Assembly (NCBI GenBank): GCA_029851415.1
Contig: CM056741.1
Location: 71,290,282 to 71,354,281 of the forward strand
Direction: 5' to 3'
DNA: 64,000 nt
DNA from: Eretmocerus hayati
Taxonomy: Eukaryota; Arthropoda; Insecta; Hymenoptera; Aphelinidae
Both the position numbers and the translations under genes were made by a program. Shown piece after piece: positions 1 to 47,933 of the stretch; position 1 is the stretch's first letter, and each line of letters starts with the position of its first letter. Below the pieces are notes generated by a model. The model was not told where the DNA came from, did no database searches, and worked only from the letters and a program-made list of their open reading frames with translations.

Positions 1-1290
1 GGACTATAGTTTATGCATCTTGAAAGAAATTTTCTCATGAGAGCAAAAAGGCGTATCCCAAGACCGCCGGTGACTGTAGGTTAGCTAGTATATTATAGGA
101 AAATGGAATAGATAGCTAGAATTGACAGCTCTGATGGATGAAGAATACCATTAAGAGTTCACAAACCATAAATTGAGATAGTTTTACAGTGCATAAGTGG
201 AATGACGTCAACTTTTGGTAGTGACTAACGACAAACCTTGGTAGTTGAGAATAGGTAATTGAATATCTGGAATAGAGTTCTGAAACTTTGCACAGAGGTA
301 GTAAACATCATTATCTACAAACCATTTCCTCAAAAACTTTATATCTCTTCCTGGGAAGAAACAAACTCCCAATATTTTTGATCAACAAATAGCAAGTAAC
401 AAGGTTACCTGCTCTCTTTCTAGCTGACTGTATACATCCAAAACAAATTGGATGGATTATCAACGAATGCATTTTCTCAATTAATAGCTGAGACGAATAT
501 ATCTGGAACACAGTTTGAAATACGGTTCTGGACAAAATAGTTTCTCTTCAAAATAGAAACCCTCTTAGCAAGTCAGACTCAATTTCACATTAGAATAGAA
601 GTAGTATACTCCAAAATAAAGAAGTAGGTTACCAGTAGCTAGCAATAACTCAACTTCATTTCATTTTTTTGTGCTCAAGGAGTCGCAAATTTCCACCTTT
701 GAGATGGAAACACCATCCAGCACAAGGGCACATCAGGGATACTAGCAGACCACTCGGATTGCACTGGGGCAATCTTCAGCCACAATTTGTGTAGCTGTCT
801 GCTATACCAAGCCACAGAGAGCACCAATAGTTTAAAGGTAGAAATATATTCATACAGAATTACTCGTAGGACCCATCTTTCTGAAATAAATAGGAGTAAT
901 GGTAGAATACGTATGATTTGTATTGTATGACAAAGTAAAGGATACTACCTTGAGACCTGAAGCTTTGTATCAATACATAATTATTAGTCCTTGAGAAGTA
1001 AGATTTGACTCTAACATCATTAGAATACAGTCGAGTCCAGTACACATCTCCTAGAGTAATCCAATAAGATTTTCAGTGAGAGATAAAGTCTAGCCCCTAT
1101 GAAATAATAGCAGTAGTAGTAACACTATATCATATTTTTTTTGCATAGTCAAGATAGGATATACATTCAGTAATTAATAAATAGGTACTTAGGGTCAAAT
1201 CATACAATAGTATAGTTGAATCAAACCTGAAATATCAGTCACTTGTGGAATAAGTCAGAGTTTAACTCTATTCAATTGTTGTCATTTAAT
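1..1290. other. AT-rich flank upstream of the retroelement, no assignable gene
   Basis: This stretch is AT-rich and has no long ORF. Its composition matches the sequence beyond the 3' end of the retroelement (after about 12150), so it may be the host DNA into which the element inserted. A short minus-strand ORF around 949-1045 ends in a donor-like AAG/GTAGTA and a further open stretch lies at about 670-840, but I could not join them into a convincing gene. No copy of the 3' LTR-like segment (11501-12152) was found here. Confidence 0.4.
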
Positions 1291-1509
1291 TAGACGCTAC
1301 AAGAACAAGCACCGCATACCGCGTCCATTAGAGTAGCGAAGCGTCGCTTGAGTCACTTGTTGATTCAATTTAGGGTCCGCACACTGAAGTGCGCCGCATA
1401 AAAAAAATAGTACTAGGGGATCTAGAGTCCCTAGCCCATCTACATAGAGTAGAATGTGTCGCGCATGCGTGTATAGGACCGACGCGAGTTCGGTTCACGT
1501 AGGAAGTTC
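1291..1509 (+). other. Leader before the first accessory ORF
   Basis: GC content rises here relative to the AT-rich flank, suggesting the start of retroelement sequence. An imperfect palindrome with CTAGGG and CCCTAG arms lies at about 1415-1436. I see no recognisable tRNA primer-binding site and no copy of the downstream LTR. Confidence 0.3.
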
Positions 1510-1917
1510 ATGCCTGGCATTGACCACAAAAAGTGTAAACCAAACAAAAAGGCGCGTGCACGTGCGCGTAGGTGGAAAGAGGCACAAGTGCGAATATTTT
1601 GGGCAAGGGTGCTAGCAGAGTTGAAAGCTACAGGCCCACCGCCGCCGTTGCCATCGGTGAACCCTCTAGACTCGATTCCGCTCCCGGACCACCCGCCGAT
1701 CAAGTGTTTGTCCTGTTTTGCGATAAATCAAGTGAGGCGCGATATCTGTCCCAAGTGTTGGAAAAAGAAATTCAACGTCCCAAATAAAGTTCCCAAACGT
1801 CGCATAAACTTCCAAATTCTCTTGGAAGCGGAAAAGTTAGGACCAGTTGAGATACCGCTAAAGAAAGCCAAGGAGGATAGAATCGTCTTTAAGAAAAGCC
1901 AATTGTTCCGTCGGTGA
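1510..1917 (+). CDS. Accessory ORF 1 of the retroelement: basic protein with a zinc-ribbon-like motif
   Basis: A 135-residue ORF starting at ATG 1510 and ending at TGA 1915-1917. I do not recognise the protein. It begins very basic (KKARARARRWK, about residues 13-23), then has a PPPP stretch (43-46) and a CX2C-X10-CX2C motif with cysteines at 66, 69, 80 and 83, which looks like a small zinc ribbon. The C-terminal half is again lysine- and arginine-rich. This composition would suit nucleic-acid binding, but that is inference. It is the first of three small ORFs that lie between the element's 5' side and gag. Its CpG-rich composition resembles gag and pol, not the AT-rich flank, which supports it belonging to the element. 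Confidence 0.55.
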   Translation: MPGIDHKKCKPNKKARARARRWKEAQVRIFWARVLAELKATGPPPPLPSVNPLDSIPLPDHPPIKCLSCFAINQVRRDICPKCWKKKFNVPNKVPKRRINFQILLEAEKLGPVEIPLKKAKEDRIVFKKSQLFRR

Positions 1918-1988
1918 AACTTTCATATTTCTTCACCACACCGTACATATTTCTATCTAATAGATTAAGTAGATACGAAGATGATAGA

Positions 1989-2606
1989 ATGAGTTTAGAA
2001 CTTAGGTTAGATTTTGACGAGTTCGAGCGTTGTTTGCATCAGAACCCAGCCGTTCCGGTGTACCATTACGTCTTACCTTATCGAGGAGACCGTTTAGTGC
2101 TGTGCGATCCTTGTTTCGCGAGTTATCCGGAATCTAAGTTCCAAAACTTCCCAGTCACCAACGAGACTGATTATCACGACTTCGTCTATGCTGGTGAAGA
2201 GACAAATTGTGATAAGTGCAAAATAGTTTGCATCGCGAAACGGTACGCGTACGAGTGCCTAACGTGCAGCGAAGCAGCTCTGCGAAGCCGTGAACAGTGT
2301 AAAGACGAACCCGACCGCCTCCCGTGTTCACACGAGATATTTACGTGCGTGCGCCAAAACCCAAACGTTCCCACGTTCTATACTGTTACAGTCGGCGGAC
2401 TTGGAGCAGATCTGTGTCACAACTGCTTTTCCTCACGCGAGATTGAGCCGGAGTATACATTGAAAACTACGACCAATTTTCACGAATTCGCTGTAGGCGG
2501 AAAATCCATATTCTGCAAAAGGTGCAGTGTACCTTGTGTTGTAGCCATTCCGTCAGTCGAGTGTCGTAGCTGTTTTGCCGAGTGCAACCGTCAATTTCCG
2601 GAATAA
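1989..2606 (+). CDS. Accessory ORF 2: duplicated eight-cysteine module
   Basis: A 205-residue ORF from ATG 1989 to TAA 2604-2606. The frame is open back to 1914, but only non-ATG codons lie there. It consists of two tandem copies of one module. Copy 1 has cysteines at 15, 39/42 (CX2C), 74/77/81 (CX2CX3C) and 90/93 (CX2C). Copy 2 has them at 120, 143/146, 176/179/183 and 192/195. Shared text includes QNPxVP before the first pair and a tyrosine- or phenylalanine-containing H-[DE]-F segment before the triplet. Four cysteine clusters per copy suggest two zinc sites. I do not recognise the family. It could be a zinc-binding regulatory or nucleic-acid-binding protein. The frame is the same as ORF 3 and gag, but several stops separate it from ORF 3. 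Confidence 0.6.
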   Translation: MSLELRLDFDEFERCLHQNPAVPVYHYVLPYRGDRLVLCDPCFASYPESKFQNFPVTNETDYHDFVYAGEETNCDKCKIVCIAKRYAYECLTCSEAALRSREQCKDEPDRLPCSHEIFTCVRQNPNVPTFYTVTVGGLGADLCHNCFSSREIEPEYTLKTTTNFHEFAVGGKSIFCKRCSVPCVVAIPSVECRSCFAECNRQFPE

Positions 2607-2759
2607 ATCTTGGAGAAACGCGGTCAGAATTTAATTTTGGGCAGAAGACCGTTTTCATTTCTTCAGTTTTATTGATATCAGTAGACTTAAGAATCCTCTT
2701 GGAATTAATAATAGTAATTAAGTAATGTGAGAGGAGATAGTCCTCGATTAGAACTTTTC

Positions 2760-3011
2760 ATGTGTATCCGCAAGGAAAAAGCTCTAACCTCAATATTTCG
2801 CACATTAGACGGTAGCGAACGCGCTTTTATTGAAGCTTTTAATTTAATAGATCGAGCCAACGAGAGATCGCGGTCTTATGCGGATGACATAGTTTCCCAT
2901 GAAATACCACTCATTTTTGTACCTAGGAAATCAAACGACTGTCCAAAAACGATAATTGACCGACTATTGCGTGACTCTATAATAACGAAGAGGGTTAGCG
3001 ACAATCATTGA
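2760..3011 (+). CDS. Accessory ORF 3, in frame with gag across one UGA
   Basis: An 83-residue ORF from ATG 2760 to TGA 3009-3011; the open frame extends back to about 2718 without an ATG. The protein is charged, with no membrane segment or known motif, and I do not recognise it. Its position is the striking part. It is in the same frame as gag, and only TGA and one sense codon (CTT) separate it from the gag ATG at 3015. UGA followed by C is a weak termination context, so occasional readthrough could make an N-terminally extended Gag. Termination-reinitiation is the other obvious reading. Alternatively it is simply an N-terminal relic of gag cut off by a stop mutation. Confidence 0.5.
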   Translation: MCIRKEKALTSIFRTLDGSERAFIEAFNLIDRANERSRSYADDIVSHEIPLIFVPRKSNDCPKTIIDRLLRDSIITKRVSDNH

Positions 3012-3014
3012 CTT

Positions 3015-4598
3015 ATGTTCAATAAAGGGCGAATCACGAGAAGCCAAGCGCAAAAAGACGCGGAAAAACAACGCGAAATTGATGCGGTTGACCCATTCCA
3101 AACTCGTTCTCGTTTAGAACGGTCTCTCAACGACACAACGTCGTCCACATTGGCAGGAATTGAGGAAGATCTTAACGAAAGTGTAGAACTCCTATCTTCC
3201 ACGGTGAAACCTTCTGGGGGTAACAGTGAAGAAGAATCCCTTGGAGCCGCCGGTTATACTCCTGACGTGAAGTTAGAGAATCGGTTAAGCCCGCAGGATT
3301 CCCTCGAGGATTCACCAGTAAGTTCTGATACGGAAGCAAACACGGGAAAAATAGGAGCCGGACGACAGGGACCTCCCCCGCCACCACCTTTCCCACCTGG
3401 AATTCCCCCAAATTTTGGGCCAAGGAATAATAATCCGGGTCAAGGAATTCCAAATACATCAACTCCGCGAGTTCCTGCAGTCATGGCACTGCAAGCAAAT
3501 CAGCTGGTAGCAATTCGGGATGCTATCGCAGTAGTCCCGGAATTTAGTGGAAAAAACATTCCGTTTAGCCAGTTTTTGCACGGTTGCGATGATGCACTTG
3601 CGATGATAGACCCCCAAGCAGAGAAAAATCTCACGCGTCTCATCCGTGGTAGACTAATAGGCGAAGCTCGGCAAGCTATCTCGGGAGAAGAATTTGATAA
3701 AATCGAAAAACTCAAAGACTTTTTGAAAACAATATATGCCCCCGCGAAAACGGAAACGCAACTTCTCGGAGAATTGGGCAATCAGTTTCAAAGAGAAAAC
3801 GAGAGTGTCATCGCGTTCGCGAATCGCTTGCGTGACTTGGGTTCACGAATCACGGAAGCCAGGAAAATCAAGAATGAGGGCACAATTGATCAGGATTTCA
3901 AGACCGCTCTTGAAAAAACCATGATTGAGTGTTTTAGTAGGGGTCTTAAACCCGAAATTGAACAACGATTACCAGAGGCAGACAATGTCAAGGACATAGT
4001 AAGAAACGCAATCGCGGTCGAAAGACGTTTGGCCGCGCAGAAAGATCTTAGAGCGATTTCAATGAGTACAGAAAATCGGAAATTTCAAAACCGAGTAAAC
4101 TCATGTCAATGTGAGTCAGGAACAATCCACTGCCTTGCTACAGATGTAAAACCTATTTGTGAACATTGCAAGAGAGAAGGGCATACAATCGATTCTTGTT
4201 ACCAAAAAGCAAAAACACAGAGCATAGTTTGCCAATTGTGCAACAAGGGTGGCCATACCGCGAAACACTGCCCGCTCATTGCCCCAAAAATGGACACTGC
4301 CGTAACATGCCAATTCTGTGAAAAAACTGGGCATGTCGCTCAGAATTGTTATGCTCTGAAAAATAAGTATCCAAACGTCCTAGAACAGAATGAGACTAAG
4401 ACCGACGAGGTCATGTGCCGGTATTGTAAAAAGCCGGGACACAGCATCTTAGAATGCCGCAAGCGCGAATATAATGAACAAAAGAAGGCGGAAAACCGCG
4501 TCAGCCTTCCGATACGGAGCGCATCGCCGGAGGCTCAGGAACCTTGCTCCGCCGAAAATTTCGATCAAATGTTGTCCGAACTCATACCATTGAGTTAA
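3015..4598 (+). CDS. gag: Gag polyprotein (capsid and nucleocapsid)
   Basis: A 527-residue structural polyprotein that would form the virus-like particle and package the genomic RNA. The N-terminal third is charged and acidic, followed by a polyproline stretch near residues 120-135. A gypsy-type capsid region follows (about 170-340; it includes VPEFSGKNIPFSQFL and a helical tract to LRDLGSRI). The C-terminal nucleocapsid carries four CX2CX4HX4C zinc knuckles starting at residues 382, 406, 432 and 468, more than the one or two usual in insect gypsy elements. The ATG at 3015 is the first one after the accessory ORF 3 stop. The last 55 bases overlap pol, in the frame relation expected for -1 frameshifting. 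There is no internal stop. Confidence 0.9.
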   Translation: MFNKGRITRSQAQKDAEKQREIDAVDPFQTRSRLERSLNDTTSSTLAGIEEDLNESVELLSSTVKPSGGNSEEESLGAAGYTPDVKLENRLSPQDSLEDSPVSSDTEANTGKIGAGRQGPPPPPPFPPGIPPNFGPRNNNPGQGIPNTSTPRVPAVMALQANQLVAIRDAIAVVPEFSGKNIPFSQFLHGCDDALAMIDPQAEKNLTRLIRGRLIGEARQAISGEEFDKIEKLKDFLKTIYAPAKTETQLLGELGNQFQRENESVIAFANRLRDLGSRITEARKIKNEGTIDQDFKTALEKTMIECFSRGLKPEIEQRLPEADNVKDIVRNAIAVERRLAAQKDLRAISMSTENRKFQNRVNSCQCESGTIHCLATDVKPICEHCKREGHTIDSCYQKAKTQSIVCQLCNKGGHTAKHCPLIAPKMDTAVTCQFCEKTGHVAQNCYALKNKYPNVLEQNETKTDEVMCRYCKKPGHSILECRKREYNEQKKAENRVSLPIRSASPEAQEPCSAENFDQMLSELIPLS

Positions 4599-7500
4599 AA
4601 AACACGAGTAAGTACGTGCCTTATATCACGTGTACGCGTCCGCAATTATCAGCTGTAATCGAACTTATGCTGGATTCAGGATCAGAAGTTAACATAATTA
4701 AACGAGCATACGTATCAATATCAGACACAATTCTCCATGATGAAATTTTCAATATCAAAGGAATCGGTCCGAATACTGTCCAGTCATGTGGAGTTGTAAA
4801 CTTTCATATTCAAGACAAACCATCTGCCTTCATAATAGTGCCAGATGATTTCCAAATACCATTTGCTGGTATACTTGGTTCACAACTTTTCCTTGAAAAC
4901 AAAGCAAAAATTAATTTCTTTGATTGCACAATACGTATCGGCAAAATCAGTTTGAATTTTAGTCAAAATGCCCATTCCGGCGAGGACTTGGAGAATTGGC
5001 AAGTGCTCAACATTGGCACGGAGATGCGTGATGACTTCTTGCCAGTTGTCTTTGTACCTCAACTGGATTCTTGGATCAGAATGCTAGTTGATAGCGGAGC
5101 CGAAGGCAACGTACTCAAGTTAAAAGCATTACCTTTTGGAATGAAAATCGACCATACTCAGAGAGTATATTTGAAGGGCGTTAGCCGTGAACTAATAGCC
5201 ACATTAGGTACTGTCATTCTCAATATTTTTAACTTCCGGACCATTTTTCACGTAGTCCAAAATAATTTCGAACTTCCATGCGACGGAGTCCTTGGAGCTG
5301 CCTATTTAACACACAGTGAGGCTCTCCTAGATTATGAAAGCAAAGTATTGAAAATCGACAACGAAATAGAACCTTTATACTTTGATAATTTAAAATTTCC
5401 AGAACCCATACTTTCAGATGATGTTGAACCAATTCATAATATTTTACACACCACGATTGAAAGAAGTAAGTCCAATGAGAGTCTGGATTCACACTTGAGC
5501 ACTTTCGTGAACGTTAATTCTGATGATCATGGGTGCTCAGGTGTGACCTCGAACTCAGAATCGAACGACGAAAATTGGGTAGAAAATAATCAAGAATTAT
5601 CAGGCCCTCTAATTTCCGATGAAACAAAATTTATTTCACCCCACGACGATATGTCTGAAGTTCATAAATCTCAGTTTGCAAAAGACCAATGCCAAATATC
5701 GGAGATTTTAGGAATCGAACCGCCGGATGATGCAGATATCGAAAACATATTTTCAATTTTTGCAAATTCAGAAACTGAACCTTCACGAAATAAGACCGTA
5801 AAAATCTTTGATATTAAAGAGGGAGTCAAGGAGATTGTGAATGCGTTGTGTTTGGACCATCTAGACATAGCCGAAAAACATTACGTTATCGACATGGTCA
5901 ACCGATACGAAGATAGATTTTTGCTAGAAGGGGAACATCTAGGAGTTGCCAGCAAAATCATGCATCGAATCTTTGTGACAGATGAAAAACCAATTAATAT
6001 CAAACAATACAAAATACCAGTTGCTCTTGTAGACGAAGTCAACAAGCAGATCAAAGAATACTTAGATGCCGGAATCATTGTTCCTTCAAATTCACCTTAC
6101 AATTCACCTATTTGGATGGTTCCGAAAAAACCAGATGCAACTGGCAAACCTAGATGGCGCCTCGTGTCAGATTTTCGTAAATTGAACGAAGTAACTGTAC
6201 CTGATGCGTATCCTTTACCTGACATACAGCAAATAATAGATAGAATAGGAGGCTATCGCTATTACTCGGTAATGGACCTGGCTTCGGGATTTTTGCAGAT
6301 TCGCATGGACCCACGTGACCAATTCCGCACAGCGTTCTCTTCTCAGTTTGGTCATTTCGAATATGCTCGTATGACCTTCGGTCTCCGTAATAGCCCTGCG
6401 ACCTTTCAGCGATATATAGATGACACCCTCGCGGGCCTTCAAGGAAAAATTTTGTACAGTTTTATCGACGATATTGTGATATTCGCGAATTCGATCGAAG
6501 AACACGAAGAAAAGATGAAGTTATTTATGGAAAGGATGAGGCAAGCGAATCTCAAACTGAATATCCACAAATGCGTGTTTTTAAAGAGCGCAGTCATATA
6601 TTTAGGTCATGTCATCTCATGCGATGGACTTCGGCCGGACCCAAAAAAAATCGAAGCGGTCGAAAAATTTCCTCCTCTAAAATCAGTGAAAAATGTGAGA
6701 CAATTCTTAGGTCTAGCAGGTTACTACCGTCGTTTCATTCCTAATTTCGCCAAAATTGCTAAACCACTCACTAAACTTCTACAGAAAGATGTGGAATTTA
6801 TTTGGAGTGCAGAAGCCGAGGCAGCTTTTCAGAAATTGAAAGAGTGTCTCTGCAATCCACCCCTCTTACAGTTCCCTGATTTCTCAGATGATAAGCCTTT
6901 CATTATCACTACCGATGCATCTGGGTGGGCCATATCTGGGATCCTATCACAAGGCGTTATCGGGAAAGATAAGCCGATTGCGTACACCTCACGGGTTTTG
7001 AACAAAAGCGAACAAGCCTTCGAAGTTTACGAAAAAGAGGCACTTGCGATGGTTCATTCCGTCCAAACTTTCCGTTCATACATCTACGGTAGGAAAATAA
7101 AATTGGTAACTGATCATCAACCATTGATCTGGTTCAAATCCGCAGAACTGAACACGCGTGTTCAGAAATGGAGGTTTCAGCTTTCAGAGTATGATTATGA
7201 GGTGATTTATAAGCCTGGTAGAGAAAATTCCAACGCAGATTGTTTATCGCGAAACCCAGTCGAGCCAGTTCCAGAAGAAGCTATTCACGTACTCACGAGA
7301 AAACAGAAACGCGCTCAGGAAACTAAAAATTCGGTAGTATCAGAGAAAACAGAATCGTTCGAACTACAACTCGAAACCGAAACAGAATCCGAAAAGAATT
7401 CACGCCCAAGTCCATTCTCTCCGCCTAGTACGGTGAGAAAATCCTCGCGATTAGCAGCAAGCGACCCGCGTAGCTACCAAGAAGACTCAAGCATTAGTGA

Positions 7501-9184
7501 AGATTTCGAAGCCCGAGCGAATCCCCCTAGTACTATTTCAGATGTTGTGGAAAATCCCGGAAATTTTTCACATATTCCACTTTTACTTCAGGAATCCGAA
7601 AATGAGTCGAATTCCGAGGCAACTACCTTAAGTGAATTAGATAGCAAGGGTTCAATATCAACAAATTTTCAGATAGTAGAAACGAAGGACCTAATTGAAT
7701 TTAGGAAGGAAAGCATAATATATTTTGCAAATGAAGACGGAAAACCTTGCGACGAAGGTGCAAAAAGGCTAATTGAAGCAAATAAGATCGCGATTGCACA
7801 GAACAGTAACATCGGTGAAACCATAGCAACCAAACGAAGCAATAATAGTCGATTCTTCGCTCTCTGCATCAATGGGTCACGCGCTGAATCTCTATTACGA
7901 ACAAAGGAGAATATCTTCGATGCATTAGTTGATTTGCGCAAACAAATCATTGAAATGAACATCAAGCTTTTCAATATTTCATACAGCCAAGAAATAGAAG
8001 GTATCAACTGGGTCGAAATTCGTAATTTACTTAAGTTAGTCTTCAAGGACTCTGACTTAAAGATTATTGTTTGCAAAAATTCACTGAGATTTGTGCCGAT
8101 AGAAAAACGAGATGAAATATTCAACGAGTTACACACACTACCGATTGGAGGTCATCGAGGGGTATCAAAAACTTACAATAGAATCAGACAGGAATATTAT
8201 TGGGAGGGTTTGAAAGACGATATTCAAAGAAGAATTCAGCAATGTTTACCTTGTCAACTCAAGAAGTTAGTTAGACTCAAAACGAAACAACCTATGATTA
8301 TCACTGATACACCGGGAACTACTTTCGATAAGGTAGCCATGGACATCGTTGGCCCCCTAACGAAGTCGCGAAATGGGTGTGAGTACATACTCACTATTCA
8401 AGATCAATTTTCGAAATTTTCTTTAGCCGTACCCCTGCAAAATACTTTAGCAATCACAATAGCTGATGCATTCATCAAGAAGTTTATTTGTGTTTTCGGT
8501 GCACCGCGAGTGTTGCTCACCGATCAAGGTCAAAATTTTCTGAGTAAATTCATGCAACGAATCTCACGTCGTTTTAAAATCAGACGTATCCGTACAAGTC
8601 CATATCATGCAGAATCAAACGGATCTTTAGAAAGATCACATCACGTCTTGAAAGAATTCCTAAAAATGTACACAGATCAAGATCATGACTGGGAAGAATG
8701 GCTGGACATCGCCATTCTGAACTTTAACACCTGTATTTCCGAATCCACAAAATTCACCCCCTACGAGGTCGTGTTTGGGAAGTTAGCTAGACTTCCATCA
8801 GGTGATCCGTTGCAAGAAGGCGACCTCGACCCTACTTATAATGGGTACATCAAGGATCTCGTGACACGACTCAACGGGATGAGAACTCTCGTTTATGAGA
8901 ATTTACTGGATTCTAAGAATCGGTCCAAAAGATATTTTGATCGGGTGCTGAATCCTCGTAATTTCAAAATTGGAGATTACGTGTTTTTACTGCGAGGCGG
9001 TAAAATAAAGAAGTTTGACGACCAATATGAGGGACCTTATAAGATCATAGAAGTCCTCGACAAAATGAATGTGAGAATTCAAATGGGCAAAAGGAGCAAA
9101 ATTGTCCATATCAATAGACTTAGGATTTCTCATATCCACCGAGAAAAACCTAATGAGAGGAAAAAGAAGAAAACAGTCGAATGA
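4544..9184 (+). CDS. pol: Pol polyprotein: two proteases, RT, RNase H, macro-like domain, integrase
   Basis: The open frame is 1546 codons, numbered here from the TTG at 4544. No ATG precedes the protease, so expression by frameshift from gag is likely. Retropepsin 1 has DSG at 44 and ILG at 110; retropepsin 2 has DSG at 183 and VLG at 249. RT spans about 490-720 with FIDD at 640-643. RNase H has D791, E832 and D857. A Ser/Glu-rich linker (about 906-1045) leads into a macro-like domain (about 1048-1180). Integrase has a zinc finger (H1197, H1204, C1234, C1237), a DDE core D1267-D1327-E1363 with exactly 35 residues between the last two, and a C-terminal GPY module (1497-1499). Catalytic residues are all present in RT, RNase H and integrase. 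The length is large for gypsy Pol because of the extra protease and macro-like domain. Confidence 0.92.
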   Translation: MLRRKFRSNVVRTHTIELKNTSKYVPYITCTRPQLSAVIELMLDSGSEVNIIKRAYVSISDTILHDEIFNIKGIGPNTVQSCGVVNFHIQDKPSAFIIVPDDFQIPFAGILGSQLFLENKAKINFFDCTIRIGKISLNFSQNAHSGEDLENWQVLNIGTEMRDDFLPVVFVPQLDSWIRMLVDSGAEGNVLKLKALPFGMKIDHTQRVYLKGVSRELIATLGTVILNIFNFRTIFHVVQNNFELPCDGVLGAAYLTHSEALLDYESKVLKIDNEIEPLYFDNLKFPEPILSDDVEPIHNILHTTIERSKSNESLDSHLSTFVNVNSDDHGCSGVTSNSESNDENWVENNQELSGPLISDETKFISPHDDMSEVHKSQFAKDQCQISEILGIEPPDDADIENIFSIFANSETEPSRNKTVKIFDIKEGVKEIVNALCLDHLDIAEKHYVIDMVNRYEDRFLLEGEHLGVASKIMHRIFVTDEKPINIKQYKIPVALVDEVNKQIKEYLDAGIIVPSNSPYNSPIWMVPKKPDATGKPRWRLVSDFRKLNEVTVPDAYPLPDIQQIIDRIGGYRYYSVMDLASGFLQIRMDPRDQFRTAFSSQFGHFEYARMTFGLRNSPATFQRYIDDTLAGLQGKILYSFIDDIVIFANSIEEHEEKMKLFMERMRQANLKLNIHKCVFLKSAVIYLGHVISCDGLRPDPKKIEAVEKFPPLKSVKNVRQFLGLAGYYRRFIPNFAKIAKPLTKLLQKDVEFIWSAEAEAAFQKLKECLCNPPLLQFPDFSDDKPFIITTDASGWAISGILSQGVIGKDKPIAYTSRVLNKSEQAFEVYEKEALAMVHSVQTFRSYIYGRKIKLVTDHQPLIWFKSAELNTRVQKWRFQLSEYDYEVIYKPGRENSNADCLSRNPVEPVPEEAIHVLTRKQKRAQETKNSVVSEKTESFELQLETETESEKNSRPSPFSPPSTVRKSSRLAASDPRSYQEDSSISEDFEARANPPSTISDVVENPGNFSHIPLLLQESENESNSEATTLSELDSKGSISTNFQIVETKDLIEFRKESIIYFANEDGKPCDEGAKRLIEANKIAIAQNSNIGETIATKRSNNSRFFALCINGSRAESLLRTKENIFDALVDLRKQIIEMNIKLFNISYSQEIEGINWVEIRNLLKLVFKDSDLKIIVCKNSLRFVPIEKRDEIFNELHTLPIGGHRGVSKTYNRIRQEYYWEGLKDDIQRRIQQCLPCQLKKLVRLKTKQPMIITDTPGTTFDKVAMDIVGPLTKSRNGCEYILTIQDQFSKFSLAVPLQNTLAITIADAFIKKFICVFGAPRVLLTDQGQNFLSKFMQRISRRFKIRRIRTSPYHAESNGSLERSHHVLKEFLKMYTDQDHDWEEWLDIAILNFNTCISESTKFTPYEVVFGKLARLPSGDPLQEGDLDPTYNGYIKDLVTRLNGMRTLVYENLLDSKNRSKRYFDRVLNPRNFKIGDYVFLLRGGKIKKFDDQYEGPYKIIEVLDKMNVRIQMGKRSKIVHINRLRISHIHREKPNERKKKKTVE
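4556..4596 (+). promoter_or_regulatory. Programmed -1 frameshift site, slippery heptamer A AAU UUC
   Basis: The heptamer AAATTTC at 4556-4562 fits X XXY YYZ exactly in the gag frame (AAT at 4557 and TTC at 4560 are gag codons). Slipping back one base enters the pol frame, which is open through this point. Sixteen bases downstream AACTCA (4579-4584) can pair with TGAGTT (4591-4596) around a six-base loop ending at the gag stop; this spacing is longer than usual, so the stem may not be the real stimulator. Confidence 0.75.
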
Positions 9185-9327: not shown

Positions 9328-11322
9328 ATGGAATGGGCAAGAGTCATCTTACTGGTTGTAATTATCAAATCAACTCATGGACTCATCGGATATGATTGTG
9401 GGTCTCGGAAGCTCGACGTTACCACCTTATCACTGAAAGATATCGGAGAATGCGAGATACCGGATTTCAACATCAATGCCACCGAACAATATGTCCAGTT
9501 ACTTCAAATTAACGAGTTTACCGAGACCCACGTCATCCAGTGCAAAATCGAAGTCCGACGACATATATTCCGCTGTGGAATGTTCAGCCATTTGTCTGCC
9601 GTACATAACGGACTCGACGAATACATCTACGAGATCAGTAGAAGTTCCTGCGAAGAAGCACACAGAACAGGAACATTCAACTTCGGGAATTCAATTATTA
9701 TTAGAGGGTTAAAACCCAATAGTACTTCCTCTCACTCTATAACTCTTGCGGGAACTATTGATTCCGATGGAACGTGTTCCGGAGTGTCATATGCTGACCC
9801 GTTTGGTAGTTGGAAAGAAGTAGTAGTTCAAGGTTCACTAAAAATAACTTTGCAAGATTACACCGGTCAAATTAGTATCGAAGATAATAAGATACACTTG
9901 TCAACCGGAACCAAATGTGCCCTCGGAATCAATAATTGTCTCGACCTAGATGGAGGCTATGCGTTCTGGGATTCGATTCCCAGAGATAGTTGTAAGTTCG
10001 ATCGATATGGTATACTATACGAAGGTATGGCCCACAAAATGGTGGATTACGATGTAGGTCAGGGTCAGACAGTCTATTCATTGGCGACTAAAGATGTTAC
10101 TTTTGCTTTAACGGTAAAGGGAAAATCAAATATCTGCGGTTATACTATCACTCTCACAGAGCATCCAAAACTTGTTATATACGAAACGCATAAGAGTCAG
10201 TCGCTTCCCATTCGAGGCAATTCGGTCGCGATCGCCAATCTTGATATTTTCGCTTACGTAAACTCCAAATTTGTTTATGTGGAGAAGCACATTCGGTCGC
10301 AAATAAAACAACTATATCGCGACGTTCTCACTCAGAGATGCAACCTAGAAAGACAAACCATCCGAAACTCTCTCTCAATTGCCACTCAAGCACCGGACGA
10401 ATTCGCATTCGACTTAATGAAAGGCCCGGGTTACATGGCTGTAACAGCTGGAGAAGTAGTACATATAGTCAAATGTATTCCTGTAGAAGTCAAGGTCCAC
10501 CATAGCGAGCTCTGCTACGCGGAACTCCGGGTGTCACGAAATAACGAAACCTTCTACCTCACACCAAGAACTCACATCCTAAAATCAAGGGGGATTGAAA
10601 TGCCGTGCAATAATTTATTGCCTCCATACTATCATATCGACGGAACCTGGTACAAAATGATACCTCGTCCAGTAGAGTCAATACCCCCTACTGTCATGAA
10701 ACCCGCGTCGAAAGCGACTTGGTCATACACGAACCCCTCTGAACTAGCGGTCAGTGGAATTTATACGGAATCAGATATCGAGCAGCTTCGCGAACGTATC
10801 ATGTTTCCATTCGAAAAACCAGCATTACTTAATGACTTGGCTAGAGAGATTCGAGGCCATCCCGTCGAAGACAAAGATGGTACAATACTTAAATTGCTCA
10901 ATGAAGAAGCAGTAGAACGCATCATGGATTCTACTTGGAACCGTCTGTGGTCCAAATTTATGACTTTCGGCACAGTTAGTGCCGGAATAATAGCTGTGCT
11001 CATGATATTTCAAGTTATCAAATCCGTCATCGAAATACTCATTCATGGGTACGCACTTCATTCAGTCTATGGATGGTCAATTCATCTATTGGGCGCTGTA
11101 TGGTCGTCATTGGCTCATTTACTGATTTATATGGCTCAAGCCAGACCAGCAGGTGAACCAATTCCAACCGAGGAATTGGAGGCAATTCATGTCAACACCG
11201 ACACCAAGCCTCACTCAAATCAAGACCCTTCAGCTCCCAAATCAAACCTTTACCCTACAGCCTCAGTCAACGAGGAACTGCAAGAAATAAAACAAAATAA
11301 GACCTTCTTCCAAGTCAAGTAA
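9328..11322 (+). CDS. env: Envelope glycoprotein, chuvirus-like rather than baculovirus-F-like
   Basis: A 664-residue type I membrane glycoprotein that would mediate entry of enveloped particles. It has a signal peptide (about 1-18, ending at STHG before LIGYDC), a cysteine-rich ectodomain with N-glycosylation sequons (e.g. N50-A-T), a transmembrane segment at about 549-570 and a second hydrophobic stretch (about 571-610), then a hydrophilic tail. I see no furin-type site followed by a fusion peptide, as expected for the F-like Env of gypsy. The N-terminal block (GYDC, LSLKDIGECEIP, a YVQLLQINEF segment, CGMFSHLSAVHNG) resembles, from my memory of the family, glycoproteins of chu-like negative-strand RNA viruses that insect retroelements have captured. 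The membrane topology is clear; the family assignment is tentative. There is no internal stop. Confidence 0.8.
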   Translation: MEWARVILLVVIIKSTHGLIGYDCGSRKLDVTTLSLKDIGECEIPDFNINATEQYVQLLQINEFTETHVIQCKIEVRRHIFRCGMFSHLSAVHNGLDEYIYEISRSSCEEAHRTGTFNFGNSIIIRGLKPNSTSSHSITLAGTIDSDGTCSGVSYADPFGSWKEVVVQGSLKITLQDYTGQISIEDNKIHLSTGTKCALGINNCLDLDGGYAFWDSIPRDSCKFDRYGILYEGMAHKMVDYDVGQGQTVYSLATKDVTFALTVKGKSNICGYTITLTEHPKLVIYETHKSQSLPIRGNSVAIANLDIFAYVNSKFVYVEKHIRSQIKQLYRDVLTQRCNLERQTIRNSLSIATQAPDEFAFDLMKGPGYMAVTAGEVVHIVKCIPVEVKVHHSELCYAELRVSRNNETFYLTPRTHILKSRGIEMPCNNLLPPYYHIDGTWYKMIPRPVESIPPTVMKPASKATWSYTNPSELAVSGIYTESDIEQLRERIMFPFEKPALLNDLAREIRGHPVEDKDGTILKLLNEEAVERIMDSTWNRLWSKFMTFGTVSAGIIAVLMIFQVIKSVIEILIHGYALHSVYGWSIHLLGAVWSSLAHLLIYMAQARPAGEPIPTEELEAIHVNTDTKPHSNQDPSAPKSNLYPTASVNEELQEIKQNKTFFQVK

Positions 11323-11490: not shown

Positions 11491-11500
11491 AGGGTGGGGG
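11491..11500 (+). promoter_or_regulatory. Polypurine tract, plus-strand primer
   Basis: AGGGTGGGGG is almost all purine and lies just before a segment beginning TGTGATGTCG, the expected arrangement of PPT and 3' LTR. It lies 168 bases after the env stop codon. Confidence 0.6.
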
Positions 11501-12152
11501 TGTGATGTCGAAGCCATCCTCAGAAAAATTTTTTCTTTTCGTCCACGAGACAAGAGAGAGCAGCCCATATCTCTCTCTCGCCTCGGTTCCGAAAATACCC
11601 TCCTATTCTACAACTTTTATTATCGGGCAGTAAATTAAACATCTCGGTCGTTTACATCCATGGCACAAGCGAACGGAGTGCATTGACGGGGCAGCGTCTA
11701 TCTTATTGCGTTATAGCGCAGCTGTCTCGAGCGAGGCAAGCACGCTGAGAAAAGACATCACATATTCGTGACCCGAGTTGCACTCGACTTAAAGCATGCA
11801 TGGGAATCGAGTGGAAATCGGACCCCGAAAATGTGATTAGATATTAACAAGCGGATGCAGCTGCGGGCGATAAAATAAACCAATAGCTCTCGGTATTCTA
11901 TGCGTCGCATCACTTCTTGCCGCTCTCAAGAGCAACAAGAGGCGGATGACGAAAGCCTATGATACAAAGAGCTCACGTCTACGCATTGGGCCGTTTACGA
12001 CTTTCGGCGCCAGCAAGCGACGGCAGCACGTATACGAGCCTATCGCATTTTCACTTTTCCGGGAAGTGAATGAACCCGAGTATGCCAATGAATAGAATGA
12101 ATACTACCAACTATTCACGGGTGGCCCTGAGCGGTCATTGCCCTCGACCACA
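11501..12152 (+). repeat. Putative 3' LTR of the gypsy-class element
   Basis: The segment starts with TG after a polypurine tract, has a composition like the element and ends near ...CGACCACA just before AT-rich sequence resumes. An AATAAA lies at 11874-11879. It remains putative because no second copy is visible upstream, so the LTR nature cannot be proved by duplication, and the 3' limit is approximate. Confidence 0.45.
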
Positions 12153-13609
12153 AAAGGTTCAAATGAAAAAATATTGTAATTAATTTTTACACAAGAGTAA
12201 CAATAATCCCTAAAATTAGGAAGGTCATGATCATCTAGTTATACTCACTTATTCATTTTTGGTTAGAAGAAAAGGATAGAAAACCATGTCAAACAAAAAA
12301 ATTATGGATTCAAAAAACTATTGGAGGCTACATAACCTCAATATTAATTAAGCAGTAGTTTGGGAGATGTAAAATTCCCTCTAAAAAATAATTGAAATAA
12401 GGAAACAATTATTATTAACGTCAGAAAACGACGACAATTCTTGATATCTCAGCAGTTATTCATTACTTTTACTTGACATCATAAAATGTCTTATTTCTAT
12501 TCATTTATTATGATATTATGAATTGCCATGTTTTTACTAAATTGTGGGAAGAAACCGTGTGAAAATTATACTCAAACAAAAAAAAAGGGGAAATAATATT
12601 GGCAATATAACCTTAAAGCCAATTAGTTATAAGAAATATTTATACAAAAACCAAGTAGATTAAGGAGATCACGGTGGATTGCACCAAATAGAACAATCAC
12701 ACAATTCTACCTCAAAAACGAGAGACTGACAAACAACAATAGTAGAAATACCAACAATATTGTATAATGGATCAAAATAGTCAAAAAAATAGAACCCGTG
12801 CCTCCATCTAGTAGCTGTAAGTTTAGAATATTTTCCCCCTCTTGGGAAATGCATTCACTCCAGCAAAGACGCCCGTAGGAGGATAATGAAAAACTCAGGC
12901 GACTCTGGTGTAGTGATGCAGCTCTTACTCCCACCCTAACATAGTTTTTAAAAAGGGCACGCCCGCTCAAAAATGGTAGCACTTCGGTCTCGGACGTAGA
13001 CCTTGAAGTATCGTCAAATTTATCGGGTTGATAACATTGCATTACTAAATTGTCAATTTTTGTATTTTCTCTAAAGTTAAATAAACTCAATTATCTATTT
13101 CTCCAAATTCAAATTTCTTTTCTTTTCTTCTTAAAATTAAATTCCGGTGTTCCAAAATCTCGTGAAATCTTCAGCAACACCAGCACGAGAGCAGCAGAAA
13201 CAGAGATTCTTCAGAGGTGTTCAAGGTTGGTAAAAAAGTGTTCATACGTACTAACATTAAAATAAACTGGAATCTGTTGAGCTATCAAAATAAGCGACAT
13301 TCCTTCGCACGTAGTACCTCTGCCACGGTTATTCTGAGGCGAGGAACAGGCGAGTGAGGAAAGTTACAAATATTTTAACAGAATGACGTTTTGGAAGGAA
13401 CAAAACGTTATTTTGTTAAATGTTTTTAAATAAAATTATACGCGCCAAAAAAAGTTACTAACCATAGACTAATCATTCTTCCGCGTACTTTGCCCGAGTT
13501 ATTCGCGGAGTCCCGCGAGACTCAAAAAGAGTAAATTCTGCGCATCAGAAATGCGCGATGTGACAAAACGTGAAAAAAAACAGCGTAGAACCCAAAAACA
13601 CAGATCGGA
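12153..13609. other. AT-rich flank, no assignable gene
   Basis: The first 1.1 kb is strongly AT-rich, like 1-1290, and the rest is mixed. A 127-codon minus-strand ORF (12707-13090) ends in a hydrophobic stretch, but no start context, homology or splice structure supports it. Confidence 0.3.
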
Positions 13610-15634: not shown

Positions 15635-16785
15635 ATGGATTCAGTGACCTCCTAACTTGAACATTTGTCAGAAGATTTATAAGGACAAGTGAATCATGTA
15701 TCTTCGAAGTTCAAACTAAACCTAGCGCTGGGGTCCAAAGATTCGTATGATATTGCAAGTGGAGTTGTCGTGAAACCTGATAGACCAAACAACAACGCTG
15801 AAGTATCGGCATGAATAAAAAAGGATTTGGATGCACAAACCCTTATAGGTTTAAATGTAAGAAGCTCTATAACCAGAAAAATAGCTAATCGTACGTTTGC
15901 ATATGCCATGTTTAGCAAATTAGAGATATTGCATGGTAAGAAATCTGAAGTGACTGTCGAAGAATTACAAAGAATGTTTTTTGCTTATGTCTATAATCAT
16001 GAAAAGTCAGTAGTAGAAAATTGTTTTCAAATACAGCAAATTGCTGATGATCTGAAGTCTGAAGGAGATGAAATCAAAGATTCTTCGATAATGACTAGGA
16101 TTTTAGGAGCTCTACCTCCAAAACTTCATCATTTTAGAGCAGCGTGGGACAGTACCAGTGCTGCTGATAAAAATTTGAGTACTTCGATAGAACGTTTACA
16201 GTTAGAGGAAGACAGGCTCAATGAATGTGAGAGAATATATGGAAGTAGTGGTCAGAATGCTTTTCTCTCTAAGAGCAACAAAAGTAGAAGATTTGAAGTC
16301 AAGTATGAAAACACTAAACAAGGTCAGTTTAACGATCTTTGTCACAAATGTAAGCAGCCAGGACATTACAAAAAATATTGTCGCAATAAACCATGTGCTG
16401 AATATTTAGAGCATTGCAAAACTATTTATCCATGTAATAATTGTCAGAAAATTGGTCACTTTGCCAAAGATTGCACTGAGCCACCAAAAGAGTCTAGAAG
16501 TCAAAGTTCAAATTCCAGCGATAAGCCTCGGAGAGAACATTTGACTATTGGTTTGTCTGTTGCAAAAATGGAATACATAAAGTCTTTGAAAGATTGTCAG
16601 GAATTGTGGTACCAAGATAGTGCTACAACTCAACATATCACCTCTCGTAAAGAGTTGTTCCACAACTATCAACTACTCGATGAATCAGTATCAGTAATCA
16701 TAGGGAATGCTAGTGAAATACAAGGTATTGGTATTGGGGATATAAACATGGAAGGTCACAATGGCAAGGAATGGTATAAAATTGT
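15635..16785 (+). pseudogene. Ty1/copia gag and protease region, inactivated
   Basis: One frame runs from an ATG at 15635 through a copia-type Gag. It contains three in-frame stops, TAA 15653-15655, TAA 15680-15682 and TGA 15812-15814; beyond the last the frame is open to the insertion. The Gag core includes LGALPPKLHHF and two CCHC zinc knuckles (CHKCKQPGHYKKYC and CNNCQKIGHFAKDC). The protease start reads YQDSATTQHIT, with alanine where the catalytic DSG/DTG triad has glycine. The region ends where a 1.3 kb LTR-like element has inserted, flanked by ACTGT repeats. Confidence 0.8.
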
Positions 16786-16864
16786 ACTGTGACGTGCGCA
16801 TGCACTTTTGATTGTTTCTTATCGGCATCCACATATATTTCCGCATCAGAAGTAAAAAAGGTAA

Positions 16865-30436: not shown

Positions 30437-33400
30437 TCAGATTAGGCCAGTAATTCTAGACTTCGAACTGTACATGAGTGCCAAAGGACGGTTCTATTTT
30501 TTTTTTGATGCGGGATACCCTATAGAACACCCCCCCATAAAATGGAACAACCCCAGGGGTGCGCAAAAAATTACAACAACAAAATAGTGCGAAATTTTGT
30601 ACTTTTTTGCGTTATTTCGCATCCCGAGGAGCCGTTATGATATTTGGATCATTTTTCATGGTACTGTGTTGTAGGCGATGAAATTTTCTAAATTTTAAAA
30701 AAAAAACCATAGTAAAATTCTTTCCGTAACTCGAGATAATTAGCAACAAAGCTGGAAAATGCCAAAAATTTCCTTCATTTTTCATTTTGAGGGAAGCCAA
30801 TGGATCGATGTGTACTTGCTGGAAAATGTAGTCCTCATAGAGTACTATATGTAAAAAAAAAATCAAAGCGATCCGTCAATAAATATTGACGCTATTCTAA
30901 TTGTTTATCCCAAATTGTTGTTTTTTGCAATAGCTGTAAAATTTTTCCACGTGCACTAAAGTTGTCGCAAAAAATCAGAGAGCTTCCTGGAACCCTCAAC
31001 TATAAGATGCAATCATAAAACCGGTCACTTTGTTACAAAAAATCGTCTCTGGAGCCAATTGTTTATAAAAATCGGAAATTGCCGATTTTATTTTGCACAC
31101 AATTCCGCGAGTAATGGATATATGGAAAAATTCGTTCTTGGACGTTGTAGTACTAATTCTGCTCTAAATTTTAAAAAAAAGAACATCACTCCACGACCTT
31201 TTGGACCGGAGATACCGATTTTTTTTTAAAAATCGATATTTTATAAACAATTGAATATTAAGGGCCGAAATTTGCGGGAAATGGTAGAAAAATGTTCAAA
31301 GTTTCATATACAGAATGTTTGGTTCACATACCTTGACTTGCGTCCTTGTCCCAGCAGGTGAAAGTTAATGTTTCCTTTATCTCGCTTGAAAAAAGCTGCA
31401 GGGGTGAGGAGTGGGGGTACTCCCGCGGCAGCGTGGCGGGCCGACCAGAAACTGAGCCGCGCTCTTCAAATCCGAGCGCTCGGAACTTTTGACGATATCT
31501 CGGGTCCTACTGGACCGTTTTTGATCATGTTTTTTTTAATTTGGGGTAGCTTTCAGAAATAAACACAATGGCGTATCAATTATAGGGATTTGAACAGCCA
31601 TTTTGGGTGTATAAGGGGTACCGTGAAAATAAGAGGTTTTGGTCCTATTTTTCCCGTGTATCAACTAATGTTTCTCACAGAAACATTCTGAATCTGTTGA
31701 ACGTGGATAATCGATAAGGGAAAGCTCCTCGGAAAATTTGAAAATTGTGAAAACTTTTCCAAAAAAAAAAAAATCTTTATTGGAGAGCGGATAATCACCA
31801 AAAAAATAAGCATAGGGAACACCATGTCAGTTTTCATTCTGGAAATCCGGAAATCGGGGTATATGCTATGGACTTTGATTCTTCATTACAAAGGACAAGA
31901 AAAAGCGAGGATTCCTGCCCTCGGTGGATTTTCATGAGAAATCAGAGACAGATAGATGAAAACGCGCTAATTACGATGACACCGCGGAAAAGTCGGACTA
32001 AATTCGCATTTCGTAGCGCGATTCGTTAGAAAATCAGTATTTACTTGGTTAGGTTGACTGTCTGTGTTTACACTGGCGAGTCGTAGAACGCAAAAAATTG
32101 ATAATAGCACATCAAGCCATCCGGTCCGCACTCTTGGTTTTGCATAGAATAGGAATCATTCATAAGGTAAGTACCGAACTTGCCCCCATTAAGCCATTTT
32201 CTTAATAACTTTGGCCCATCTCCATATTTTCCAACGTACTTTAACTCATTTCAAAGCTTGTCTCAAGACCTTCAAAATGAGCTAAGATACGTCCAATTTA
32301 AATGAAGTGGAGCCGAGCTGTTTGAATTCTCCCAAAAGGTGATTTTTGAGAGTTCACAAAAGTGTGTACCCAACTTGCCCCCATCATTTGAAACAATGTA
32401 AATCGGCGATGAAGTGAATGGAATCGCTTTTATCCGTTTTGATCACCGTGCAGCGACATTTATAGCTTTTTGCTGGCCCAAGACATCGTTTTCGACCTAT
32501 TTTGACGTGATAAACACGTTCTGAGTGGTAAAAAAAGCCATACTGCACGCCTTTCTGAGATAACCATATGGGGGCATGTTGGGTACACTCCGATGGTGGT
32601 CTTCTTGATTCTCAAATCATCTCCGTGTTTTGTACATAAAATCGCTCCAAATCAAAGTTTTGCAACTCTGAAGAACGGATTTCGAAGGTCTTGAGGTAAG
32701 GAATCGAATGCGCTAAGGTACATACGTCAAGATTGGTCGAATAAAAATAAGTTGGCACCGGTTTTAGTGAACGCGGTTTCCTCGGTGATTTTTTAGCCGT
32801 GCAAACACGAAAAATGGAAAACTCACTTTATATTTTCTGGAGAGAACGCAGGAATGATCCGGGGTCGATGAAAACTACGTATTTTCTCATATTTCAACAT
32901 AACAAACGTAAAAAAAAATTGCGGGAAGGTCAACGAGTGCCCATTCCTGAGATCGGCATATGGGGGCAAGTTGGGTGCAGAGGCAAGTTGGGTACACTTA
33001 CCTTAGTATCATTTGAGTGTTGCAGAGTATTCGTATTGAGGGCTGGGTAGTTACGCTACAGTACGAGTCTGAAACCAGACATCAAGCGGAGAATTAGGCT
33101 CAGCCCCCAGCAATTGGCAGTTGTATTTTGAATCATGACAAGTATGAATTTTTCACGCGAGATGATCGTTATGCTGCGTACCGTGTCGATTTATTCGTGG
33201 TATTTTCATTGTTAGCCGAAGGTGCTCATTACACGTATGCTGCACGATACGCAGTTTTTTCTAGAGTGACACTTTTACGAATTTAGTCATAACATTGATG
33301 ATGCAGTCCGAATTCATCAATTCGTTCGAACAATAAAACGAGCTAATTTAACTGATCTAGAGGTGATAAAAATATCAAGATTTTCTTAAAACTGCACCAC

Positions 33401-46838: not shown

Positions 46839-47933
46839 CGCTGTAAAAAATTGGTTGACTTCCAACCAAATTGCCCAACCAGTAGTTGAAAATTCAACCA
46901 CTGGTTGGATACCCAATTCAACCAGCTGGTTGACTTTTTTCCCACAACAAATATATAAGGATGAATGCGGCGCCTACGGTATTGATCGATGGTGGTCTCC
47001 GGTTGACACTTTTGATTCGGAAAAACGAGTTTCGTCATTTTTTTCACAAACAAAGAGGGATAAACATTAGCCCCGGTCTCGTATGGACGACAAAGCGGGT
47101 TGCCTGTCCTGCAGGAGTCGAATACACGTCGTAACGCTGGAGGGATAGAAAGATGGACGGATGGGGTTAGAGGGTAGATGGGATGGATGGATGGAATGGA
47201 ACGGATCGGAATCGGACGGAATGGAACGGAACGGGATGGAAAGGTGTGGAATGGAATGGGCCGGAATGGAACGGAGTGGAATTGAACGGAATGGAAGGGA
47301 ATGAAATGGAACGGACCGGAATGAAACGGAGCATAATTGGAGTGGAAAAAAGTTCCGGTCCATTCCGTTCAATTCCACTCCGTTCCATTCCGGTCCGTTC
47401 CGTTTCATTCCCTTCCATTCCGTTCAATTCCACTCCGTTCCATTCCGGCCCATTCCATTCCACACCTTTCCATCCCGTTCCGTTCCATTCCGTCCGATTC
47501 CGATCCGTTCCATTCCATTCCGTTACTTTCAATCCCGTTCCGTTCCATTCCATTGAGTTCTATTCCATCCATCTATCCTGTCTACAACCCCCCCCCCCAT
47601 CCGTCCATCTATCCATCCCTCCAGCCTTACGGCCCGTATTCGACTCCTGCAGGACATGCATTTCTGTATATATACAGAAATGATGAATGTTCAACCGTGA
47701 TGACTGGTGCTTATCACGCTTTTTTTAAATGTAACTGGTGCAAAAACTGTGATGAGACTTTTTAAATCTAATAATGTTCCCTTATTGGGTCCTCCATTTA
47801 TCCACTTTCCGAGCCGCACGTTCAGTCATATGGCGTCGGAATCAACCAGTGGTTGAATTTGGTGATCAACCACTGGTTGAGGGAAAAACTTCAACCAATC
47901 GGTTGAAGTTTTTGCCACGGATTTTTTACAGTG
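46839..47933. mobile_element. TIR element, CACTGTAAAAAAT ends, enclosing a palindromic satellite
   Basis: The termini CGCTGTAAAAAAT and ATTTTTTACAGTG are inverted and flanked by TATA (46835-46838 and 47934-47937). CAACCA(C/G)TGGTTGA words crowd both subterminal regions (46850-46935 and 47845-47905). There is no transposase; the interior is a GGAAT-type palindrome. Confidence 0.75.
47104..47657. repeat. Palindrome of degenerate GGAAT pentamers
   Basis: TGTCCTGCAGGAGTCGAATAC at the left recurs inverted at the right. Inside them 47160-47340 is (GGAAT/GGAAC)n and 47350-47570 is the complementary (ATTCC)n. Long ORFs on both strands here are repeat artefacts. Confidence 0.85.

Follow-up and report, generated by a model that had tools for sequence, protein, structure and literature searches.

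Do the three small open reading frames (ORFs) that precede gag in an endogenous retrovirus (ERV) of the chalcid wasp Eretmocerus hayati (Aphelinidae), a parasitoid of whiteflies, encode proteins of that retrovirus? Retroviruses of the complex kind are familiar mainly from vertebrates. The stretch analysed here, which we call the window, comprises 64,000 nucleotides of a 692-Mb assembly (C1:71290282-71354281; negative positions lie to its left). A first-pass annotation had seen in it three small, closely spaced frames upstream of gag, and from them had proposed a complex endogenous retrovirus with regulatory or auxiliary proteins. The frames, here ORF-A, ORF-B and ORF-C, are present on the + strand and are open across copies. 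They lie in an 18.6 kb provirus of the Ty3/gypsy class that is cut by the left end of the window and has the gene order leader, ORF-A, ORF-B, ORF-C, gag, pol, env. Are they genes? And, if so, what might their proteins do? If the proposal is true, extra proteins on top of gag-pol-env have evolved outside the Retroviridae too, in a recently mobile insect lineage.

On balance we think it probable, from the sequence comparisons given below, that all three ORFs are accessory genes in a Ty3/gypsy ERV that was active recently and carries an envelope gene, that they act by a mechanism set out further on, and that the window family is one of several families in a 'complex' Metaviridae group. The ORFs belong to the mobile element, being common to dispersed copies with target-site duplications. 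Copies were found with ORF-A and ORF-B as queries, so that copies without the cassette would be missed. The genome search with ORF-B gave 42 matches, ten of them unbroken and at 100% identity; that with ORF-A gave 20 matches from 22 scored candidates, one of the 20 with stops. Thirty of the 42 ORF-B matches, two of which overlap, were then surveyed as loci (numbered with L) using four queries, namely the three ORFs (ORF-B from the ATG at 1989) and the initial part of gag. Of these loci, 21 contain ORF-A, 19 ORF-C and 21 the initial part of gag; the best 18 of the 30 have all four, with the ORFs in the same order before gag. Among near-identical copies, ORF-A, ORF-B and ORF-C are stop-free over the matched stretch in ten of ten, and the initial part of gag reads in a single frame in nine (it is split in L006). 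In an older subfamily, L011-L017, ORF-B and ORF-C are stop-free in all seven copies, ORF-A in six (L015 has two stops), and six have gag in a single frame (it is split in L015). Neutral decay of the frames beside a conserved gag, which the first-pass annotation had named as evidence against its own proposal, was not found: the frames persist with gag.

The edges of the element were set by comparing the flanks of near-identical copies. Duplications of 4 bp are present at all six insertions for which both edges were read: AAAC, CATA, CTGG, CGTA and ATCC, with CCAG flanking two tandem copies that have one long terminal repeat (LTR) in common. A primer-site-like TGG sequence begins 3 nt after the 5' LTR. 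The two LTRs of an insertion are identical in three cases and differ by two bases in one; a single difference separates those of the window element and likewise the outer LTRs of the tandem pair. Since LTR pairs differ by only 0-2 bases, these insertions are very young. The element also bears on the recent burst of LTR elements in E. hayati, mainly gypsy and within the last million years, that is described in a part of the genome paper (PMC13116730). The tandem copies lie at C1:114464382 and 114481442, with one common LTR and with ORF-B starts 17,060 bp apart.

Selection on the frames was examined first through the ratio of nonsynonymous to synonymous substitution rates (dN/dS) between the window and six older copies (L011-L014, L016 and L017; L015 was excluded for its stops). 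A ratio below 1, proposed earlier as a check, is found for all three ORFs: 0.16-0.21 for ORF-A, 0.07-0.12 for ORF-B and 0.29-0.48 for ORF-C, the weakest, as against 0.19-0.32 for the gag part. These pairs are not independent, because the older copies appear to be closely related. The off-frame control, made against L014 only, gave 1.08-2.72. More distant comparisons gave 0.06 for ORF-A against L030, where dS is near-saturated, and 0.20 for ORF-B against L018. The stricter test was a neutral resampling of distinct changes (5000 resamples), with L015 included for the three ORFs. Synonymous changes number 42 in ORF-A (22.9 expected) and 69 in gag (40.8 expected), values reached in 0 of 5000 resamples, and 36 in ORF-B (21.5 expected; 1 of 5000, P 0.0002). 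Stops are below expectation for gag (P 0.017); in the same resampling a deficit of stops is not clear for ORF-A (P 0.45), ORF-B (P 0.055) or ORF-C (P 0.38). The codon comparisons show ORF-A and ORF-B to be under purifying selection. The proposal of a complex endogenous retrovirus with auxiliary proteins is therefore supported in these two, and least in ORF-C. Of the phrase 'regulatory or auxiliary', accessory genes have held up, and regulation is a candidate role.

What, then, of ORF-C? A somewhat unlikely alternative is that ORF-A and ORF-B are the sole genes, and that the ORF-C frame results from constraint on the splice and translation signals that lie ahead of gag, or is a leader peptide whose sequence is almost indifferent. 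Its dN/dS is the weakest of the three, it has 16 synonymous changes where 11.9 are expected (P 0.11), and the predicted gag acceptor at 2927 lies inside it. Against this, its protein is about 34% identical to sequences in two loci (L018, E 7e-9; L026, E 3e-8) for which the nucleotide search had no match in the ORF-C stretch, and its frame, its length and its junction with gag are retained. That junction consists of a stop, a single codon and the in-frame gag ATG (window 3009-3014 region). Compared at 13 places, it reads TGA-CTT-ATG in ten of the 11 copies of the window group (L011 retains the stop and the codon, without the ATG); for L018 and L026 the reading is TAG-CTC-ATG. Read-through or reinitiation is possible there. 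The protein similarity and the gag junction support ORF-C, which stays the weakest of the three.

ORF-B is conserved across divergent families. Within a set of 19 proteins, the ORF-B homologs of two related families, fam50 and fam25, are 48% (E 2e-73) and 26% (E 4e-27) identical to it; pol is 44-57% identical among the three families. The fam25 element has its own LTRs, spans about 22.2 kb, and carries four ORFs upstream of gag. Two are Cys-rich, one is an FG protein, and the one next to gag is ORF-B. No LTR of fam50 was found in the stretches fetched. About 11 ORFs precede gag in fam50 (L046:110-2670, and L021; the two copies are about 95-97% alike): an ORF-A-like frame, two coiled-coil-like, two Cys-rich, five FG proteins, and ORF-B. 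The ORF-A-like frame, 32% identical across a stretch of 47 residues (E 0.012), is suggestive only. FG1-FG3 are related among themselves (E 6e-10 to 2e-17) and likewise to the fam25 FG protein (E 5e-4 to 8e-6), and they have the motif FG(Y/F)(Y/F)(I/V)D ... CPFLxP(F/Y)P. FG4 and FG5 are placed with them by resemblance only, their best E being 0.016, and where these two frames end varies from copy to copy; FG4 has 328, 298 or 260 codons, or is broken with 76. ORF-C matches FG proteins over only about eight residues, identical or nearly so. For the accessory ORFs of fam50 and fam25, dN/dS is 0.06-0.45 in 29 of the 31 comparisons with an aligned stretch; ten further comparisons gave none. A search with an FG profile, scored on the 7995 candidates that had the most words in common, gave two matches, both hypothetical E. 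hayati proteins. Separately, the public E. hayati gene model QAD02_005161 (P0005) joins an FG first part to the second unit of ORF-B, in what looks like a splice; this is annotation only.

The families also differ in their envelopes. In the window, env matches Pfam PF24664 over almost its whole length (E 6.6e-241), with no Baculo_F match in Pfam. The fam50 envelope is of the baculovirus F type, Baculo_F (L043:1117-3190), and fam25 (L048:1686-5542) has an F-type envelope gene, broken across frames in the copy examined, in tandem with a chuvirus-type one. Two unrelated fusion proteins within one LTR element looks unusual. Near one fam50 copy there is a partial chuvirus-type match 3 kb beyond the F-type envelope, which is only a candidate for the same element. 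The pol of the window element matches reverse transcriptase (RT), RNase H (RH), H2C2 and integrase (IN) in Pfam, with a protease (PR) match under the Pfam cut-off (E 0.042) and no BEL/Pao-specific Pfam match. The nearest solved structure to RT-RH is that of Ty3 (4ol8, E 2.7e-77), followed by an 'enzymatic polyprotein' (8r0s, E 7.5e-52) and a retroviral Gag-Pol RT (8wus, E 1.5e-36). The element has the features of Metaviridae: LTRs flanking gag and a pol in the order PR-RT-RH-IN, 4-bp duplications and TG...CA ends. Given its Ty3-like RT and its PF24664 envelope, it is a member of the Metaviridae with a chuvirus-type envelope and no textbook errantivirus. In the overlap of gag and pol, a heptamer, A AAT TTC (4556-4562), has the phase that -1 frameshifting requires.

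Taken more widely, these families may belong to a clade of giant, complex Metaviridae that arose independently and is carried by chalcids, an idea that we hold tentatively, at slightly less than an even chance. Such elements, of which two measure 18.6 and 22.2 kb and others may be longer, would have three to about 11 lineage-specific accessory genes upstream of gag, multiple splicing under a virus-encoded basic RNA-binding regulator, F-type and chuvirus-type envelopes, both in some elements, and very recent activity, some LTR pairs being identical.

What might the proteins do? ORF-A has an arginine/lysine-rich N-terminus, a proline-rich linker and a C-x2-C-x10-C-x2-C pattern; its match to a double-zinc-ribbon model is sub-threshold (E 8e-4, under the curated cut-off). 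Because it is small, very basic and arginine-rich, with a CxxC-CxxC pattern, ORF-A could be a nuclear RNA-binding regulator, Rev/Tat-like, that would export incompletely spliced RNA or act on transcription. ORF-B has two tandem Cys/His units with eight invariant positions each, as judged from six sequences of the window group, L018, fam50 and fam25: C15, C39, C42, H63, C74, C77, C81 and C93 in the first, and C120, C143, C146, H165, C176, C179, C183 and C192 in the second. It may be an acidic adaptor, tandem and zinc-binding-like, that binds host proteins and perhaps blunts silencing or restriction. No recognisable domain was found in ORF-C by Pfam; it might be a small coupled ORF that adjusts how strongly Gag is translated or, if its stop is read through, yields a minor N-terminally extended Gag. 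The start of ORF-B is placed at the ATG at 1989 because stops counted in L015-L017 vanish when it is read from there; the frame as listed is 1914-2606, 230 codons from a GTG. That of ORF-C is 2727-3011, 94 codons from a GTG.

The whole leader is about 4.5 kb with 56 ATGs, and scanning ribosomes could hardly cross so AUG-rich a sequence. Its guanine-cytosine (GC) content is 0.356 (0.372 at window 1-1509), compared with 0.444 for 1510-3014 and 0.463 for gag; the earlier remark that the frames share the composition of gag is borne out. Splicing from a leader donor would bypass the leader and reach separate acceptors before ORF-B, ORF-C, gag and env. When sets of ATGs are drawn at random, 0.27% of them equal the summed acceptor score of the five predicted starts; for randomly drawn positions the figure is 0.88%. 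The AG of the ORF-B, ORF-C and gag sites is retained in seven of seven aligned older copies (ten were tried). A donor-like GTGAGT, with CCA before it, lies at -2445 in the window copy and in the six other copies read, which is no conservation test as the copies are nearly identical there. Because the acceptor and donor results are mixed, multiple splicing from a leader donor to separate acceptors falls, in our judgement, just short of an even chance. The leader itself is variable: a block from -2227 to -1441 has no match in five of the six other copies read and is present in L041, and the five are about 99% alike to the left of the block and 93-94% to its right. Two leader versions are in circulation, and perhaps arose by recombination.

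Several results weigh against accessory genes acting in this manner. The acceptor scores come from a rough, untrained matrix, by which 759 AG sites were ranked in the window element, and the top three sites are within pol and env, preceding no known ORF. The site at 1374, before ORF-A, is retained in one of eight aligned older copies. In the related families the acceptor test is non-significant (P 0.105 in fam50, 0.506 in fam25 and 0.099 for the fam25 envelope pair). The donor at -2445 is without the usual G as last exon base, and no donor was compared with chance. ORF-C failed the stricter selection test. Among the accessory ORFs of the relatives, dN/dS is 1.00 for FG5 against L022 and undefined for FG3 against L019, and several older copies have stops, among them three in FG4 of L022, two in ORF-B of L023 and one in ORF-B of L050. 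ORF-B has no relative in Pfam or in the PDB (best E 0.44 in the PDB profile search), and a single-sequence AlphaFold model of it was discarded, its pLDDT (predicted local distance difference test) score being 34. The roles given to ORF-A, ORF-B and ORF-C therefore come from composition only.

Could the ORFs be real, and yet stand outside replication control? They might counter host defence or aid assembly or spread, like the lentiviral auxiliary proteins or sORF2 of the Drosophila MDG1 group, and be translated from unspliced or singly spliced polycistronic RNA. This is an unlikely account, with some points in its favour: ORF-B is strongly constrained and zinc-binding-like, Cys-rich ORFs have multiplied in the relatives, and the acceptor evidence in the other families is non-significant. 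On the other side, the 56 leader ATGs make unspliced scanning unlikely, and ORF-A, ORF-B and ORF-C have no segment of transmembrane strength (the top 19-residue Kyte-Doolittle mean is 1.27), so that none resembles the FAST-like sORF2.

The remaining readings, under which the ORFs are not genes of the element, fare much worse. It would help the case for chance ORFs within a noncoding leader that each frame is short and that two begin at non-ATG codons as listed; the dN/dS values, the off-frame controls and the presence of ORF-B at 26-48% identity in other families make it very improbable, and for ORF-A and ORF-B we reject it on dN/dS, resampling and those homologs. A nested insertion or host gene fragment confined to this copy, for which nothing speaks beyond the absence of known homologs, is rejected as next to impossible, given the cassette order in the best 18 of the 30 loci and ORF-B before gag in fam25 with its own LTRs.

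Table 1. Features of the window element, with positions in the window unless stated
Feature	Position	Strand	Remarks
5' LTR	C1:71285227-71287291	+	2,065 bp; left of window
Leader, 3' part	1..1509	+	without long + strand ORF; rest left of window
Predicted 3' splice sites before ORF-A	1374, 1448	+	ranks 25 and 26 of 759
ORF-A	1510..1917	+	135 amino acids (aa), isoelectric point (pI) 10.6
Predicted 3' splice site before ORF-B	1964 (first exon base)	+	rank 11 of 759
ORF-B	1989..2606	+	205 aa from ATG of conserved part, pI 5.3
Predicted 3' splice site before ORF-C	2667	+	rank 4 of 759
ORF-C	2760..3011	+	83 aa from first ATG; in frame with gag; weakest of the three
Predicted 3' splice site inside ORF-C	2927	+	rank 5 of 759; next ATG is that of gag
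gag	3015..4598	+	527 aa, CCHC knuckle
pol	4544..9184	+	-1 frame; PR-RT-RH-IN order; Ty3-like RT
Predicted 3' splice site before env	9242	+	rank 23 of 759
env	9328..11322	+	664 aa; Monjiviricetes (chuvirus-type) fusion glycoprotein
Polypurine tract	11491..11500	+	AGGGTGGGGG; precedes 3' LTR
3' LTR	11501..13565	+	2,065 bp; TGTG...ACA ends; single difference from 5' LTR
Target-site duplication	13566..13569	+	AAAC; second copy directly left of 5' LTR

The window has other features beyond the provirus. A Copia-type gag fragment with a CCHC knuckle lies at 15827-16792 (Pfam Retrotran_gag_2, E 1.6e-14), a near-perfect palindrome of 4.6 kb at 30472-35089 (arms of about 1.6 kb, 95-98% complementary), and at 47183-47607 a satellite of TTCCA/TGGAA pentamers in the form of an inverted pair. 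The telomere repeat at the end of C1 (L054) is TTATGGG-like, with one base fewer than the TTATTGGG that chalcids commonly have, according to a part of PMC8977481.

Relatives outside E. hayati were not found in the collections searched. Of 1126 candidates from 5.8 billion proteins, two matched in a profile search with ORF-B, both from E. hayati; a single-sequence search of the same number of proteins with ORF-B gave none of 79 candidates at E 0.01. One of the two profile matches, QAD02_003530, is letter-identical to the ORF-B of a related element at L047. Viral contigs searched with ORF-B, an RT piece and ORF-A gave no confirmed relative. NCBIfam has no match to ORF-B or ORF-C and a single chance-level match to ORF-A (E 0.065), and no sequence relationship of the three ORFs to proteins of complex retroviruses was found in Pfam. 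No report of the cassette was recognised among the titles and abstract beginnings of open-licence PubMed Central, and one may exist elsewhere. As a young system of many copies and several families, these elements allow the gain and loss of accessory genes and envelope types to be traced within one genome, and they offer candidates for proteins with which such viruses of insects might oppose silencing by the host.

How does the element compare with known systems? ORFs upstream of gag are less foreign to Metaviridae than the first-pass annotation supposed. In the Drosophila MDG1 group (412, mdg1 and Stalker), as a section of PMC11952523 describes, sORF1 and sORF2 precede gag and have low dN/dS; the product of sORF1 is nuclear, and that of sORF2 is a FAST-like transmembrane fusogen. 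The window element likewise has small upstream ORFs under purifying selection, clear for ORF-A and ORF-B and weak for ORF-C. Unlike the MDG1 group, with two sORFs and no envelope, it has three ORFs, its relatives have four and about 11, and env is full; nor do its ORFs have the transmembrane strength of sORF2. Additional genes are also mentioned, in part of PMC2774666, for Tat-clade and fungal chromovirus elements. With the errantiviruses (gypsy and ZAM), surveyed across metazoans by Chary and Hayashi (2025), as cited in a passage of PMC13172572, it shares a Ty3-like gag-pol-env provirus, and fam50 and fam25 share the F-type envelope. The window element, unlike errantiviruses, has an accessory cassette and an envelope of the chuvirus type (Monjiviricetes), not the baculovirus F type. 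In the ZAM/Beagle subclades, a section of PMC12992720 reports, env is spliced from a short peptide-coding exon upstream of gag. Chuvirus-type envelopes have been captured before, by the BEL/Pao element Anakin, a Pao-chuvirus hybrid of mosquitoes (PMC7642597, in part), and the portion of a survey in PMC10084718 notes Gypsy flanks around chuvirus-type glycoproteins in Hymenoptera, where clear Gypsy capture was not seen. The window element has such a glycoprotein as env, as Anakin does, and differs from it in having a Ty3-like pol.

The complex retroviruses of the Retroviridae have gag-pol-env and several small accessory genes, and are multiply spliced. In lentiviruses, deltaretroviruses and spumaviruses the accessory ORFs are placed around env. 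The window element resembles them in having selected accessory genes beyond gag-pol-env, clear for ORF-A and ORF-B and weak for ORF-C; these may also be multiply spliced. It differs in belonging to another family and in carrying these ORFs upstream of gag, not around env, and the number of its ORFs, their proteins and the combination of envelopes appear to be new.

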